Origin: Dokdonella sp.
GTDB taxonomy: Bacteria; Pseudomonadota; Gammaproteobacteria; Xanthomonadales; Rhodanobacteraceae
DNA: 64,000 nt
Direction: 5' to 3'
Assembly: GCA_016712865.1 (NCBI GenBank)
Contig: JADJQH010000002.1
Span: 1,397,800 to 1,461,799 of the forward strand
Numbering within the stretch: the stretch's first letter is position 1; each line of letters opens with the position of its first letter. This document shows positions 6,118 to 32,390 of the stretch, piece by piece. Both the position numbers and the translations under genes were made by a program. The notes beneath the pieces were generated by a model, which saw nothing but the letters and a program-made list of their open reading frames with translations, had not been told where the DNA came from and did no database searches.

Positions 6118-7905
<1,788 letters not shown>

Positions 7906-17166: not shown

Positions 17167-18525
17167 CTATTCGAACCCATCCGCAAAAATACGATCCACA
17201 CTGCTCCGCCAATGCCAGGCGTACGGCGAGACCAATGCAATAACCCGCGCATTTTCTTCGTTGACGCCCCCCGTATGGAAAAGAACGCCATCCACGAAAA
17301 TGTCGACCTGGTCGTTGGCATAATGAAGCACCGTCGGGCACTCGCCCTCGCACTCGGGGTCGGGTGGCTGGGCATCGAACTTGTATGACAGCAGGCTACG
17401 ATGGCCCCCCTTCTTGGATGCCATGGGGTTCTCCCAATGGGCCTGCGCCCACGGTACCAGCGGCGTCGTATTGCTGTTGCTCTCGGGATTGTGGTTGCCG
17501 CCGAGGATATGCCCGAATTCATGCTGGAACGAATAATCGCCCAGATCGCAGTCACGCACGCTGACACCGAGAGCAAATTCGGCAAAGCCCGCCGGCTGCG
17601 GAGCACCGCCAAATCCAGGCGTGTAGGCTTTTCCGCAGTTGCCTTGCGACTTGGATTCCCGCACCAACATGACGATATCCGCGCCCCAGTAGTCGCGAAT
17701 ATTGACTGGCAGTGAAGTTCCGTCGAGGCCTTGCAAATACAGCAAGTCTTCACCCATCGTCTCCGTCTCGCCACGCGGCACTTCCTGCGCATGCACCAAG
17801 TGCACACCCGTCAACGGAAAGCCGGTTTGGCTGCTGGCACTGTTGATCATCGCCTGCTGGGTCTGGTCGGCGAGATGCTGCATTGCCATTTGCACGTTGG
17901 CGCTGCCGACGGTCTGGGTCACCGTCGGCGTGTACAAGATCAGCACATCGATGCGGTCGTCCAGCAATGGCGTGAACGGCTGATCCAGAGACGAGAATTC
18001 TTCCGGCAAGGCCATTGGCGGACTGCCGTTTACCGTCGCCACATCGTCCATGGCTTCTGGAGGCGTGTTCCCAAACACATGGCGGGTCAGGCGCGCGCCG
18101 GTTGGCGACAGGGCGATCCGGTAACTGCCATCCACGCAGGAAATGGTCCCCATCAGGCGATTCTGGTATGCCGTGAAGATGGCACTGCAGCCGTCACCGT
18201 GACCTGACCAGACGAACGCGCCCGGGCCTCGAATTTGTCCGCGATCTCGAGTGAGTGTGGAAATGCCTCGATCGGGCAGGTTCAGATCGATCCAGTCCGG
18301 CAAGTCCGCCAACCTATCCACGTTCATCTCAACCGGCCATTCCGTCGCCGCTGAGGGACTCGCCCATGCGCCAGGTATCTCGGAGACACCCACGCTTCTG
18401 AACACCAGCGATGATGGCGGCTCACCCAAGCCCACCCATTCCAGCTCGACCGTTGCCAAAATCGGCGTCGACGCCAGCGCGAACACGAGTCCGACGACCG
18501 ATGAAAATTTACGTTTCCTTTTCAT
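17167..18525 (-). CDS. Secreted metzincin-type zinc metalloprotease with C-terminal IFADGFE tag
   Basis: The zinc site HEFGHILGGNH fits HExxHxxGxxH of reprolysin-like metzincins (M12 type), with the three histidines as ligands and the glutamate as base. I start at the ATG at 18525, preceded by GGAGA, which opens a signal peptide (MKRKRKFSSVVGLVFALASTPILA). Residues about 25-180 look like a pro-region; the catalytic domain begins near VDVLILYTPTVTQT. The protein ends abruptly in DRIFADGFE, with nothing after the tag, so the tag is the true C-terminus. The TAG stop abuts the ATG of the IPTL-CTERM gene. Probably an extracellular protease with that protein as partner or substrate. Confidence 0.87.
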   Translation of the reverse strand: MKRKRKFSSVVGLVFALASTPILATVELEWVGLGEPPSSLVFRSVGVSEIPGAWASPSAATEWPVEMNVDRLADLPDWIDLNLPDRGISTLTRDRGQIRGPGAFVWSGHGDGCSAIFTAYQNRLMGTISCVDGSYRIALSPTGARLTRHVFGNTPPEAMDDVATVNGSPPMALPEEFSSLDQPFTPLLDDRIDVLILYTPTVTQTVGSANVQMAMQHLADQTQQAMINSASSQTGFPLTGVHLVHAQEVPRGETETMGEDLLYLQGLDGTSLPVNIRDYWGADIVMLVRESKSQGNCGKAYTPGFGGAPQPAGFAEFALGVSVRDCDLGDYSFQHEFGHILGGNHNPESNSNTTPLVPWAQAHWENPMASKKGGHRSLLSYKFDAQPPDPECEGECPTVLHYANDQVDIFVDGVLFHTGGVNEENARVIALVSPYAWHWRSSVDRIFADGFE

Positions 18526-18884
18526 CGCAATCTCCAGAGTGTTATATCTAGTCAGGCTACGCCGCAGGCTGGGCCCAAGCAAGCATGCGCTGCAAGGACA
18601 AGGCGATGACCCAATCCGCGCCCAAACCACACTTCACGTTTTGGCCCACCCCTCAGTCAGGCACCGACACGCTCCTTGACCGGACCGTGGCGGAATCCGC
18701 CGTGCTGGAGCGCAGTTCACGGCTATTCGTTATGAGGAATGCCGAGCGCATGCAATCCGTATACCCGGCGGAGCGATACACGCTGAATTTCGGCGATCTT
18801 CGCCGAACTGGACAGTATGGTTGACTTCCGGGACACTAGGCCGCTGTTTGAACGGGCCGGGTGTCGGCCCCGGCCGGAAACCCG
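18526..18884. other. Intergenic region with no recognised gene
   Basis: Between the divergent metalloprotease and aroQ starts I see no gene or repeat element. Short open frames here lack family features. The region should hold both promoters, but no clear -35/-10 pair stands out. Confidence 0.5.
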
Positions 18885-19388: not shown

Positions 19389-19865
19389 ATGGATCTACGC
19401 AAGATCAAGAAGCTCATCGACCTGCTGGAAGAGTCCAACCTTTCGGAACTGGAGATCAAGGAAGGCGAGGAAATCGTCCGTCTTTCGCGCTACCCGAAGA
19501 ACATGACGCCGGCCATGGCGCAGCCGCTTGCAGCGCCACCGGCAGTGAGCCACGCCGCAGCCGCACCGGCACCGGTGGCAGCCAGCGCCGGCCCCGCGCC
19601 TGCGGCGAGCCCCGCTGCCGACCTTCCCGCAGGCAACACCGTGCGTTCGCCCATGGTCGGCACCTTTTACGCCTCGGCCAATCCCGATGCGCCGCCATTC
19701 GTGAAAGTCGGCCAGAAGGTCAAGGTCGGCGACACCCTCGGCATCATCGAAGCCATGAAGATGTTCAACCAGATCGAAGCCGATGTGGCCGGTACCGTGC
19801 TGGCGGTGCTGGTGGAAAGCGGTCACCCGGTGGAATTCGACGAACCGTTGTTTGTGATTGGCTGA
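19389..19865 (+). CDS. accB: Biotin carboxyl carrier protein of acetyl-CoA carboxylase
   Basis: AccB carries biotin between the carboxylase and transferase parts of acetyl-CoA carboxylase, the first step of fatty acid synthesis. The start [16 protein letters not shown], a long Ala/Pro linker (about residues 48-85) and the biotinyl domain with [12 protein letters not shown] (the lysine is biotinylated) are all present. Length (158) is normal. accB and accC are usually adjacent and co-transcribed. Here they are separated by a 440-bp element carrying an S23 gene. Confidence 0.97.
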
Positions 19866-20309
19866 ACAGCCGGGAATGGGGAATGGAGAATGGGGAATCG
19901 TTCAAGCGGGCCCACGAACGGCTCGAAGTTTGGCGAGACGCCATGACTCTTGTCGAGAAGGCTAATGGCTTGACGTCGGATTTTCCGGCCGATGAACGAT
20001 TCGGATTGACTGCGCAGATTCGCCGCTCTGCCGTCAGCATCCCAACCAACATCGCAGAAGGAGCCGCGCGTCGATCTACCCAGGAGTACCTTCGGTTTCT
20101 CTCCATTGCGCGCGGTTCGCTCTCAGAAATGTCCACGCAGATCCAGATCGCGTCACGTCTCGGAAACATGAGTCCGGCATTGGAACTTGACGCCTTGATT
20201 GACAGCACTTTCGCCAAACTCACGGCCCTCATGAATGCCTTGAACAAGCGGAGAGACTGAAGATGACCGCCGCTTCAAACCCATTCCCCATTCCCCATTC
20301 CCGATTCCC
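19866..20309. mobile_element. GGGAAT-arm element carrying a four-helix-bundle (S23) gene, inserted between accB and accC
   Basis: The left arm (CCGGGAATGGGGAATGGAGA from about 19870) begins directly after the accB stop. The right arm (CCATTCCCCATTCCCGATTC...) ends flush against the accC ATG. Between them is a complete S23 gene, whose start codon is part of the left arm. The left junction GGGGAATCGTTCAAGCG closely matches the core border of the gene-less elements at 26.1 and 27.5 kb (GGGGAATCGCTCAAGCG, GAGAATCGCTCAGGCG). No target-site duplication is obvious. Confidence 0.65.
19883..20260 (+). CDS. Four-helix-bundle protein of the S23 (23S rRNA intervening sequence) family
   Basis: The 125-residue product has the family core [18 protein letters not shown], the [21 protein letters not shown] segment and [16 protein letters not shown]. 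Relatives are encoded in rRNA intervening sequences and, as bAvd, beside diversity-generating retroelements. They bind nucleic acid, but no cellular function is established. The ATG lies inside the left GGGAAT arm of the element, and the GGGA runs upstream may serve as ribosome site. No reverse transcriptase is nearby. Whether it helps move or maintain the repeat family is an inference raised in the findings. Confidence 0.9.
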
Positions 20310-21671
20310 ATGCTAGACAAAATCGTCATCGCCAATCGCGGCGAAATCGCCTTGCGCATCCTGCGTGCCTGCCATGTGCTCGGCATCAAGACCGTGGCCG
20401 TGCATTCCACGGTTGATCGCAACCTCAAGCATGTCGGCATGGCCGATGAGTCGGTTTGCATCGGTCCGGCGCCTGCGGCGGAGAGTTATCTCAACGTACC
20501 GGCGATCATTGCCGCGGCCGAGGTCACCGACGCCCAGGCCATACATCCCGGTTACGGGTTTCTTTCCGAGAACGCGGATTTCGCCGAGCGCGTGGAGCAG
20601 TCCGGTTTCATCTTCATCGGTCCGCGCGCCGACACCATCCGCATGATGGGCGACAAGGTCGAAGCGATCCGCGCCATGAAATCGGCCGGGGTGCCTTGCG
20701 TGCCAGGATCGGGCGGGCCGCTCGGCGATGACATCGTCGAGAACACGCGCATCGCGCGCGACATCGGCTACCCGGTGATCATCAAGGCAGCCGGTGGTGG
20801 TGGTGGTCGCGGCATGCGCGTGGTGCACACCGAGGCGCATCTGGGCAATGCCATCGGCATGACCAAGACCGAAGCCAAGGCCGCGTTCGGCAACGATCAG
20901 GTGTACATGGAGAAATTCCTGGAGAACCCGCGCCACGTGGAAATCCAGGTGCTCGCCGACGGACAAGGCAACGCCATCCATCTGGGCGAGCGTGATTGCT
21001 CGATGCAGCGTCGCCACCAGAAGGTGGTCGAGGAAGCACCCGCCCCCGGCATCAGCGAAGACGCGCGCCAGGCGATCGGCAAGGTTTGCGTCGATGCCTG
21101 CCTGCGCATCGGTTATCGCGGCGCCGGCACCTTCGAATTCCTCTACGAGGATGGCCGCTTCTACTTCATCGAGATGAACACGCGCATCCAGGTGGAGCAT
21201 CCGGTCACCGAGATGATCACCGGCGTGGACCTGGTGCGTGAGCAATTGCTGATTGCCGCGGGCGAAAAACTTTCCATTCGCCAGGAAGACATCCACATCA
21301 CCGGCCACGCCATCGAATGCCGCATCAATGCCGAAGATCCGGACACCTTCATGCCCAGTCCGGGCCTGGTCAAGCGCTTCCTCGCCGCCGGCGGCCCCGG
21401 CGTGCGTACCGATACCCACATCTACGACGGCTACCGCATTCCACCCAACTACGATTCCATGATCGGCAAGCTGATCGTGCACGGGCGTGACCGCGCCACC
21501 GCCGTCGCGCGCATGCGCCAGGCGCTGGCCGAAGTGGTGATCGAAGGCGTCAAGACCAACCTGCCGCTGCAGATGCGCATCATGTCCGACGGCGGCTTCC
21601 ACAGCGGCGGCATGAATATCCATTACCTGGAAAAACGCATCGCCGAGAGCCGCGAATCGAGAATGGCTTGA
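20310..21671 (+). CDS. accC: Biotin carboxylase subunit of acetyl-CoA carboxylase
   Basis: AccC carboxylates the biotin of AccB using ATP and bicarbonate. The 453-residue product starts [20 protein letters not shown] and has the ATP-grasp glycine loop [10 protein letters not shown], the [16 protein letters not shown] and [19 protein letters not shown] segments, and the catalytic [16 protein letters not shown]. The GGGAAT element ends at the base before the ATG, so the usual Shine-Dalgarno position is filled with ATTCCCGATTCCC. Translation may therefore depend on an unusual leader or on upstream transcription from accB. Confidence 0.97.
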
Positions 21672-21879: not shown

Positions 21880-22057
21880 AGGATTCGAGAATCGTGAATG
21901 GCCTGAGGGCCGGGAATCGGGATTGGGGAATGGTTGCAAGGCCGAGAGTCGGGAATCGGGAATAGGGAATAGGGAATCGTGAAAGACAAGAACAAGAGCA
22001 AGGGCGAGGCGCGTTCCGCTTCAACTATTCCCCACTCCCCATTCCCGACTCCCGGCT
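21880..22057. repeat. GGGAAT paired-arm element overlapping the 5' end of prmA
   Basis: Single arms (CGGGAATCGGGATTGGGGAA) are followed by a full element: GGGAATAGGGAATAGGGAAT (from about 21957), a core GTGAAAGACAAGAACAAGAG onward, then CCCCACTCCCCATTCCCGAC ending about 22055. The core is the reverse complement of the core of the next element (22938-23127). prmA is therefore bracketed by two copies in opposite orientation. Confidence 0.85.
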
Positions 22058-22977
22058 TCATCGAACTCTCCCTCAGCCTGCGCGCCGATCAGCAGGAGAG
22101 CGTGGAGGCGGCGCTTGAGGACGTCGGCGCATTGGCGGTGACCTTGCTCGATGCCGATGCCGATACCAGCAACGAGCAGGCCATCCTCGAACCCGGCGTT
22201 GGCGAAACGCCCTTGTGGTCGCAGATCGTGCTGACGGCGCTGTTCGAAGCGGACACCGATCGCAGCGGCCTGCTGCTGGTTCTCGCTGAATTGTTGCCGG
22301 ATCTTGATCCCGCGCAGATCACGTTCCGCGAAGTCGCCGACCAGGACTGGACGCGGGTGTGGATGGACCAGTTCAAGCCCATGCAGTTTGGCCGCAGGCT
22401 GTGGGTGTATCCGTGGAACATCGAGCCGCCGCAATCTGCCGACAACGTCTTTATTCGTCTGGATCCCGGCCTGGCCTTCGGCACCGGCACGCACCCCACG
22501 ACGGCGCTGTGCCTGGAATGGTTGGATCGCATGGATCTTGCCGGCAAGTTCATCATCGACTACGGATGCGGTTCCGGCATTCTCGCCATTGCCGCCGCCC
22601 TGCTCGGCGCAAGCCAGGTGCAGGGCGTGGACAATGATCCGCAAGCCATCGAATCGAGCCTGAGCAATGCGATGCGCAACGGCGTGGCCGAACGCATCAG
22701 CCTGCACCTGCCGGGCGCGGAAGATCCCGCACCCGTCGACCTGCTGGTCGCCAACATCCTTGCCGGCCCGCTGCACACACTGGCCCCAGTGTTTGCCGCG
22801 CGCCTCAAACCCGGTGGACGCATGGCCTTGTCGGGAATCCTGCACGGACAGCATGTGGAACTGCTCGAACGTTATGCCGAGTGGTTCGACGATCTGGTCG
22901 TGAGTCAACGGGACGACTGGGTGCGGATTGAGGGGATACGGGCCGGGAATCGGGAATGGAGAGTGGGGAATAGTTGA
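21979..22977 (+). CDS. prmA: Ribosomal protein L11 methyltransferase PrmA with repeat-encoded ends
   Basis: PrmA trimethylates ribosomal protein L11 with S-adenosylmethionine. The SAM-binding site IIDYGCGSGILAIAAALLGA, VDNDPQAIESS and the LLVANILAGPL motif are intact, and the N-terminal L11-binding domain starts FIELSLSLRADQQESVEAAL. The first in-frame start is a GTG at 21979 inside a GGGAAT element, which adds about 26 foreign residues (KDKNKSKGEARSAS...FPTPG) before the family start. The stop is in the next element, giving a repeat-encoded tail GNREWRVGNS. No ATG, GTG or TTG in frame lies closer to the domain. The enzyme core looks functional. Confidence 0.93.
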   Translation: MKDKNKSKGEARSASTIPHSPFPTPGFIELSLSLRADQQESVEAALEDVGALAVTLLDADADTSNEQAILEPGVGETPLWSQIVLTALFEADTDRSGLLLVLAELLPDLDPAQITFREVADQDWTRVWMDQFKPMQFGRRLWVYPWNIEPPQSADNVFIRLDPGLAFGTGTHPTTALCLEWLDRMDLAGKFIIDYGCGSGILAIAAALLGASQVQGVDNDPQAIESSLSNAMRNGVAERISLHLPGAEDPAPVDLLVANILAGPLHTLAPVFAARLKPGGRMALSGILHGQHVELLERYAEWFDDLVVSQRDDWVRIEGIRAGNREWRVGNS

Positions 22978-23127
22978 AGCGGAGCGCGCCTCGCCCTTGC
23001 TCTTGTTCTTGTCTTTCACGATTCCCAATTCTCGGCTTCGCAACCATTCCCTATTCCCTATTCCCTATTCCCTATTCCCTATTCCCTATTCCCTATTCCC
23101 CATTCCCGATTCCCGGCCTTCACCACC
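22938..23127. repeat. GGGAAT paired-arm element between prmA and the DUF3426 gene
   Basis: The left arm (CCGGGAATCGGGAATGGAGA) encodes the end of PrmA. The core (TTGAAGCGGAGCGCGCC...TTGTCTTTCACGATTC) is inverted relative to the 21.9 kb copy. The right side carries an unusually long run of ATTCCCN heptads. Confidence 0.85.
23046..23115. repeat. Heptanucleotide microsatellite (ATTCCCT)n
   Basis: Seven perfect ATTCCCT units (23046-23094) are followed by one ATTCCCC and two ATTCCCG units. It lies 26 bp upstream of the DUF3426 gene start and is the longest uninterrupted run of this heptad in the window. Confidence 0.9.
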
Positions 23128-26118: not shown

Positions 26119-26267
26119 GCCGGGAACAGGGAATAGGGAGCGGGGAATCGCTCAAGCGAAGCACGCATCGTCGTTGCTTTTGTTCCTGCTCCCAGACCAT
26201 TCCCGACTCTCCATTCTCCACTCCCGGCTACCAAACCATTCCCGATTCCCCATTCCCGATTCCCGAC
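26119..26267. repeat. GGGAAT paired-arm element between purH and purD
   Basis: The element starts 2 bp after the purH stop (CCGGGAACAGGGAATAGGGA) and has the core GAATCGCTCAAGCGAAGCAC continuing to CTGCTCCCAGACC. A double right arm (ATTCCCGACTCTCC... and ATTCCCGATTCCCCATTCCC) ends just before purD. The core is nearly identical to that of the 27.55 kb copy. Confidence 0.88.
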
Positions 26268-27549: not shown

Positions 27550-27667
27550 CGGGAATGGGGAATAGAGAATCGCTCAGGCGAAGCACGCTTCGTGGTTGCT
27601 TCTGCTCCCAGACCATTCCCGATTCCCCATTCTCCGTTCCCGGCTTCACAATCCCCAATCCCGAATC
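27550..27667. repeat. GGGAAT paired-arm element after purD
   Basis: It begins 2 bp after the purD stop. The left arm is CGGGAATGGGGAATAGAGAA, and the core TCGCTCAGGCGAAGCACGCT onward matches the purH-purD copy with a 6-bp gap. The right arm ends about 27660 and abuts the REP-type element at 27669. Confidence 0.87.
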
Positions 27668-30300: not shown

Positions 30301-30383
30301 AGGCCGGGAACGGGGAATCGCAGACCGGCGCTCCGTTTGGCTTTGACTATTCCCGATTCTCCATTCCCTGTTCCCGGCTTTAC
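30301..30383. repeat. Short GGGAAT paired-arm element
   Basis: CCGGGAACGGGGAATCGCAG, a core of about 25 bp and ATTCCCGATTCTCCATTCCC then TGTTCCCGGC form a compact inverted repeat. It lies between the stop codons of the two convergent genes and overlaps the end of ampE, where it may act as a bidirectional hairpin. Confidence 0.8.
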
Positions 30384-32303: not shown

Positions 32304-32390
32304 AGGGGAATTGGAGAATCATCAGGTCGGCTGCGACGGATTGTTGCCCTTCAACCATTCCCTGTTCCCGAATCCCGATTCCCGATTCCC
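32304..32390. repeat. GGGAAT paired-arm element, degenerate
   Basis: GGGGAATTGGAGAATCATCA, then a core of about 30 bp, then ATTCCCTGTTCCCGAATCCC and GATTCCCGATTCCC. It lies directly upstream of the nudC start. Confidence 0.7.

Follow-up and report, generated by a model that had tools for sequence, protein, structure and literature searches.

Heptamer repeats and the S23 family

To our knowledge, the S23 or four helix bundle family is widespread in bacteria and has a solved structure, and it has no known function. A member of this family in a repeat context was described by Warrier 2016 (PMC4990558), who reported, in the part of the paper accessible to us, three GACAGAT heptads preceding the S23 ORF of the Coxiella rRNA intervening sequence (IVS), variable between strains; according to the same part of that source, the S23 protein is a ring-shaped pentamer, and the Coxiella S23p is probably not translated. 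Heptamer repeats were treated by Rehm 2015 (PMC4692102), where, within the accessible portion, heptamers and their inverted pairs (70 in Xcc and 75 in Xac) are described, sequence variation between species at the same places is noted and the function is left open; the main text of that paper holds no match for S23 or four helix. The same terms had no match in the accessible portion of PMC4679880, which deals with TAACTGA heptads in Beggiatoaceae, and a literature search that left most subscription papers and bioRxiv outside returned no paper tying S23 to heptad arms in general.

The present analysis starts from a stretch of 64,000 nucleotides of a Dokdonella genome, referred to in full as the window, in which an S23 gene lies between inverted heptad arms. 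This observation is confirmed and is much wider than first described, while the interpretation attached to it by an earlier, sequence-only reading of the window is partly supported. The finding joins two orphans, the xanthomonad and cyanobacterial heptamer repeats and the S23 / four helix bundle family, and it suggests a DNA system, so far unrecognised, that spreads or maintains itself. Genomes are given below by G numbers (G000 being that of the window) and loci by L numbers.

The S23-bearing element between accB and accC

The element and its neighbours, which we take to be accB and accC on recognising the encoded proteins, are arranged as follows.

19389..19865, plus strand: accB, upstream neighbour; start read from the sequence, stop at 19865
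19871..19898, plus strand: 5' arm of the S23-bearing element; tandem heptads GGGAATG, containing the ATG of the S23 gene
19883..20260, plus strand: S23 / four helix bundle protein gene, 125 aa; matches to PF05635, TIGR02436 and 2gsc
20280..20309, minus strand: 3' arm; ATTCCCC heptads abutting the accC start codon
20310..21671, plus strand: accC, downstream neighbour; ATG at 20310

The two arms form a 27-nt pair that is 93% complementary with 384 nt between, and the whole element measures 439 nt. Its ORF belongs to the S23 family, with 108.5 bits against PF05635 (E 2.5e-31; curated cut-off 33.8) and 105.1 bits against TIGR02436 (cut-off 24), and the solved Xanthomonas homologue 2gsc/XCC0516 matches it over nearly the full length (E 1.7e-43). 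As this alignment starts at residue 1, with MENRES against MENGES, the start codon located in the arm is credible and probably shared. The element lies between protein genes and not inside a 16S or 23S rRNA gene; Rfam gave no match at gathering score over positions 7000-33500, and the PADLOC profiles of known defence systems gave no family at E 0.001.

The surroundings offered two further observations. In the window the accC ATG stands directly at the 3' arm, and the GGAG that precedes the ATG in the empty gap of G001 is absent. On the minus strand, at 17167-18630, a 487-aa ORF carries the motif HEFGHxxGxxH and is presumably zinc-protease-like.

Gene-less doublets in the window

The window contains 78 copies of GGGAAT where 28.9 are expected (2.7-fold), a number reached by none of 100 shuffles. 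At all eight paired-arm places that had been proposed, GGGAAT was found on opposite strands, with one exact GGGAAT each in the left arms at 30.3 and 32.3 kb. As had been claimed, the accB-accC copy carries a gene with its ATG inside the left arm; the other seven are gene-less pairs, listed here without strand.

7786..7903: gene-less heptad doublet
21911..22046: gene-less heptad doublet; 5' arms apparently nested
22944..23114: gene-less heptad doublet; 3' arms apparently nested, inner ends those of the 21.9-kb doublet in inverse order
26123..26264: gene-less heptad doublet; site filled in 6/6 same-genus genomes with readable flanks, with various units
27551..27627: gene-less heptad doublet
30309..30368: gene-less heptad doublet
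32306..32390: gene-less heptad doublet; left arm common to G003

By eye, the doublets at 21.9, 22.9 and 26.1 kb have a nested or composite look. The junction GGGGAATCGYTCAAGCG, thought to be shared by the S23-bearing copy and the short copies at 26.1 and 27.5 kb, is exact at 26.1 kb, and the 27.5-kb copy reads AGAGAATCGCTCAGGCG, with three differences. Coding and gene-less elements have an inner motif in common, AAGC or AGAGC no farther than 16 nt from the arm, which is present at 18 of 35 ends against a background of 6.5%, for a motif picked after looking and with three of 38 ends yielding no sequence. The proposal that the short copies are internal deletions of the full element fits this motif and a 3' remnant in the accB-accC gap of G003; on reading, no S23 coding sequence beyond the inner motif was seen in the short copies.

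A second short repeat, with inverted arms CCCTCTCCCGC / GCGGGAGAGGG, lies beside heptad doublets near 946 kb and 1190 kb of G000 (L207, L210), and a like sequence is present in G003 too.

Arms around S23 genes in general

PF05635 is present in 28 of 60 relatives. When the flanks of 30 fetched loci from these relatives were read by eye, many showed inverted tandem repeats of about seven bases whose word varied (GGGGACC, GGGACTC, AGATCNG, GGGATTC, GGGAGCA, GTGACGC, GGGGAAC, GGTTTCA and GGCGAAT were seen); the unit varies among loci and is common to both arms of a locus. It had been expected that GGGAAT arms flank S23 genes more often than other genes. Inverted arms are indeed far commoner around S23, and their presence is general, but GGGAAT is one dialect among others, found by eye at about 6 of 31 relative loci.

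The comparison was made on 200-nt flanks of distinct gene sequences, against 1,383 ORFs that all came from the sampled relative genomes and that serve as clean controls, since neighbouring ORFs used earlier may share the S23 arms. For the 139 S23 loci, taken from relatives, viral contigs and many phyla, the arm match exceeded the 99th percentile of the controls at 107 and the control maximum at 89; 32 loci had no arms above the 99% level. By source, the 99th percentile was passed by 23 of 31 loci from relatives, 61 of 79 named loci (the best 80 of at least 585 GTDB relatives, ranked by likeness to one query, one being dropped for too little flank) and 23 of 29 viral loci (the distinct ones of 33, L111-L143, near-identical loci still being within the 29), and the control maximum by 21, 46 and 22, respectively. 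The median arm score was 18 for matched arms (n=143) and 7 for arms paired across loci (n=1,702). Among 109 armed loci, 56 had a single clear period, which was 7 in 49 of them, 8 in five, 9 in one and 6 in one. In the inward reading direction, G is abundant and C scarce in both arms (37% G, 14% C).

Several observations concern the settings in which these genes occur. Armed S23 elements are present on viral-classed contigs, with the 23 of 29 given above; 22 plasmid records have an S23 match, and a phage record collection searched with one S23 query gave none. Two plasmids of one Calothrix brevissima strain (L224, L225) carry an alike S23 gene beside a gene of the phage integrase family; their annotated neighbours are alike on both sides, so this is not a clean insertion. 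In the arms of the S23 locus L015, GGGGAACG words alternate with small hairpins of varying sequence, at a period of about 23 nt (by eye), which differs from a plain heptad array. In PMC10910872, a figure legend names a 23S rRNA IVP in a figure of CRISPR-linked genes, where, at a guess, tandem heptad arms were taken for arrays.

Arm words as genome dialects

Six S23 words, from five genomes of the order, were each found dispersed 16-376 times in their own genome when two tandem units were counted on both strands. GGGAATN and AGATCNG, the latter being the word of a second S23 copy, were counted in G000 only, where they occur 234 and 16 times (reversed-pattern control 0); the other four words were counted across 60 genomes. 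Three of these four are nearly confined to a genome or genus, namely GTGACGN (327 in G042 and 114 in G052 of the same genus, no more than 3 in any of the other 58), GGTTTCA (376 in G044, the largest of the dialects counted, at most 1 in 59 others) and GGCGAAT (80 in G058, no more than 2 in any of 59 others). GGGACTC is not: it has 73 matches in G033 and 224, 66, 56, 47, 36, 34 and 10 in seven other genomes, among which only G032 (56) lacks S23, and it is frequent also where S23 has another unit (224 in G048, 47 in G025). Reversed-pattern controls of the four-word scans gave 0-3 matches per genome, G052 (15 and 22) and G058 (18) excepted; these two genomes presumably contain words of that kind themselves. 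Farther afield, the word of L090 (Bacteroidota) has 173 matches in its own genome, where the control gives 7, and 3-20 matches in each of 14 others (controls up to 39), and that of L088 has 11 in its own genome against 9 in one other and 0-1 in the rest.

On the scale of single loci, at least one further copy of the own word (at most two mismatches) lies within 23 of 55 testable S23 loci; over the 55 loci the own word has a density of 0.57 per kb, compared with 0.017 per kb in other loci. In G007 the doubles of GGGATT, its S23 word, are matched in frequency by those of GGGAAT (0.067 and 0.083 per kb).

Whether heptads as such go with the gene was addressed in 40 kb each of 24 of the 28 S23-positive and 24 of the 32 S23-negative genomes, away from known S23 matches (G008 and G039 left out). 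Heptad arrays numbered 31 in the positive and 4 in the negative genomes (Mann-Whitney P=0.0017), a count that may split single arrays and a contrast that is not independent, since the sampled genomes are related and P ignores relatedness. Seven inverted heptad pairs were found in five S23-positive genomes and none in the negative ones; an eighth, in G042, was rejected as one long direct array. Stricter detection left 13 arrays against 0 and one pair against 0. Other periods gave no pairs, and their arrays, in positive and negative genomes, numbered 18 and 13 for period 5, 6 and 2 for 8, 5 and 6 for 10, 8 and 3 for 11, and 10 and 7 for 13. Within the genus, doubles of GGGAAT and of GGGATT were lacking in the 40 kb sampled from each of the S23-negative G001 and G005; six S23-positive genomes had 0.03-0.29 GGGAAT doubles per kb, and G004, whose S23 is decayed, had 0.05.

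The same sites in related species, and transfer

The accB-accC gap was read in 50 of the 60 genomes: 11 hold an S23 gene and five a gene-less doublet or single arm (G003, G033, G034, G035, G058); in G049 the gap is long and free of heptads, and the remaining 33 are short. Thus empty sites, whose absence had been named as a refutation, occur among relatives beside gene-less and filled ones. Two of the 11 genes are decayed, one being missed by the profile (G004) and the other having a broken frame (G022). The words at this site include GGGAAT, GGGATTC, mixed GGGAAC/GGGAAT, GGGACTC, GGGCTGA and GGGCCCA; at a second site, between carA and carB (named by reading the flanks), they include GGGGACC, GGGACTC, GGGAGCA and GGCCAGA. 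In the tree, S23 genes from the acc site and from the carA-carB site stand apart (one change, support 80/92); the car genes form no supported clade, and eight genes from other sites lie among those of the acc site without resolved placement, so that a single long residence at the acc site is a possibility.

At a same site, both arms differ together between species, and either a change of the arms in place or replacement by new insertions may have produced the differing words. The 26.1-kb site reads GGGAAT, GGGATTC or AGATCN in six same-genus genomes; in G002 the S23 element has this same word, and outside the AGATC units of G003 there are remnants of GGGAATT. The 22.9- and 27.6-kb sites are empty in most same-genus relatives.

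Between G002 and G007 the S23 element is identical at 429 of 439 positions, against 85% in the 3' part of accB and 91% in the first 900 nt of accC, with a steep rise in identity at the 5' arm that is kept up until about 150 nt into accC. On this pattern, the element has passed between these two species and entered the same site, either through homologous recombination or through a process akin to homing. No movement within one species was seen, and no target-site duplication was noticed by eye in filled and empty gaps, which could be compared across species only, at sites too diverged.

Mechanism and alternatives

It appears to us just probable that S23 genes and dispersed inverted heptad doublets are one two-part system, with S23 acting in trans in a RAYT/REPIN-like manner. 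The low-copy S23 gene would sit within one doublet, and its pentameric product, putatively nucleic-acid-binding, would recognise heptads of its own dialect in trans and work with the replication and recombination enzymes of the host. The simplest route would be annealing of heptad single strands combined with template switching, by which doublets could be copied to new places, old ones replaced and the arms kept alike. What the data show is that S23 goes with arms, that the dialect is common to gene and dispersed copies in the genomes tested, that arms differ jointly between species at one site, that an element crossed between species, and that a site may be filled, gene-less or empty. Against the system count the 32 of 139 loci without arms above the 99% level, the heptads of S23-negative genomes, the frequency of GGGACTC and, in G007, of GGGAAT where S23 has another word, and the probable lack of translation of the Coxiella S23p. 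The role of S23 as the agent, its action in trans and the annealing step are inferred; for heptad binding and for annealing with template switching, we infer this from the ring-shaped pentamer and the likeness to Avd.

The heptads might also be driven by the host alone, slippage and gene conversion making and homogenising the doublets, with S23 surviving inside them as a passenger that does not act on them. Slippage by 7 nt was proposed for heptamers in the accessible part of PMC4692102, and heptads persist in genomes without S23, G032 with its 56 GGGACTC matches and G034 with a GGGCTGA doublet. Such a scheme would not predict one protein family within doublets across phyla, nor the scarcity of heptad arrays in S23-negative relatives (4 against 31) when other periods differ far less, and we regard it as rather doubtful. 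A different account draws on the rRNA IVSs, which carry S23 ORFs and inverted repeats and, in Coxiella, the three heptads before the ORF (PMC4990558, accessible part): the arms would pair in the transcript, RNase III would excise the S23 RNA, and pairing would maintain the arms. The direction of the genes speaks on both sides, since in tandem gaps the named S23 loci share the orientation of the two flanking genes 42 times against 6, and the viral ones once against 20, counts that are unreliable owing to crude ORF calls and near-repeat viral contigs. The arm mismatches keep a G:U pair in 130 cases and break pairing in 128 (108 loci), and this lack of a G:U bias is evidence against the arms being selected to pair as RNA and in favour of their being copied as DNA; many doublets, moreover, have no gene. 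Maintenance by RNA pairing is improbable in our judgement.

Should the doublets be moved by a transposase encoded elsewhere, of the Y1/RAYT kind, or by a reverse transcriptase, S23 would be cargo. REPINs are thought to be moved by such enzymes (PMC3116915, accessible part), and G000 has four Y1_Tnp matches. On the other hand, G044, with its 376 GGTTTCA matches, has neither Y1_Tnp nor RVT_1, the two families tested, and Y1_Tnp had no match in three further S23-positive genomes (G015, G022, G037) either, by which a Y1 transposase is rejected as a required partner. A reverse transcriptase is rejected in that role as well, its presence being unlinked to S23: RVT_1 is found in 7 of 28 S23-positive and 5 of 32 negative genomes (P=0.52), is absent from 21 of the 28 and has no match in G000. 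Taken together, movement by an enzyme from elsewhere is distinctly improbable. The published reading of GGGAATC in Xanthomonas as G-quadruplex regulatory repeats has in its favour that such oligonucleotides form G4 structures in vitro (PMC4692102, accessible part); with no GGG in either aligned arm at 50 of 109 armed loci, and the four-run pattern present in the 5' arm of 9, G4 formation fails as a general cause, and we consider this reading very unlikely.

Beyond the two-part system, a wider proposition is put forward tentatively and would be a less than probable one: S23 might define a bacteria-wide class of elements with rewritable ends, which use many seven-letter words, whose arms are rewritten together and whose doublets follow the dialects of their genomes. 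A broken doublet may gain new repeats, inward, at each of its two 3' ends, in a telomerase-like manner without a reverse transcriptase. A hint at inward addition comes from 11 AGATC arrays, in five of which a GGGAAT/GGGATT word stands outside, in one inside and in five neither. If this proposition is true, the rRNA intervening sequences are the special case that landed in rRNA.

The two-part system, if true, would supply a cause for the heptamer repeats, a first testable function for S23 and an origin for the rRNA intervening sequences, together with a rule checkable in any genome, namely that the arm word of an S23 gene is a dialect of its genome. It would also be a repeat system without any fixed terminal sequence, and this, as far as we know, familiar transposition schemes do not explain.

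Comparison with known systems

Insertion sequences and their MITEs resemble the present elements in having coding and non-coding members with like ends. They differ in that no terminal sequence is fixed here, the unit varying by locus and between species at one site, in that a known transposase is absent, and in that no target duplication was found in the cross-species gaps. Avd of the diversity-generating retroelements (DGR) is resembled by PF05635 in sequence and structure (PMC10053308, accessible part); for the reverse transcriptase expected of a DGR, RVT_1 has no match in G000 or in 21 of 28 S23-positive genomes.

The Xanthomonas and Nostoc heptamers (GGGAATC and GGGGA(C/T)T; PMC4692102) are, in the GGGAAT dialect, the same repeat, inverted pairs included; the accessible part of that paper makes no link to S23, and its G4 reading does not generalise. 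The rRNA IVS with S23p shares the protein family, the inverted arms and nearly the size (428 nt in Coxiella, 439 nt here), and heptads have been published for the Coxiella IVS (PMC4990558, accessible part); these GACAGAT heptads are an independent instance. The present element differs by its position between protein genes, by its dispersed gene-less copies and by showing no sign of selection for RNA pairing.

The closest parallel is found in REPIN-RAYT, in which a low-copy gene is flanked by a repeat that recurs as many dispersed inverted doublets in the same genome, and in which several repeat types each stand beside their own gene (PMC3116915, accessible part). The sequence-only reading had suggested that the S23-bearing element could be the full-length form of a family of small parasites; dispersed doublets together with an S23 gene in low copy number have a closer resemblance to REPINs and their RAYT. 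Dispersed inverted doublets bearing the repeat of the associated gene are present here, but that gene does not encode a Y1 transposase: the flanked protein is a four helix bundle unrelated to the Y1 (HUH) enzymes, and Y1 genes are not required in G044, which has no Y1_Tnp match. Furthermore, the arms are tandem heptads of varying word, in contrast to the one palindrome family of REPIN-RAYT.
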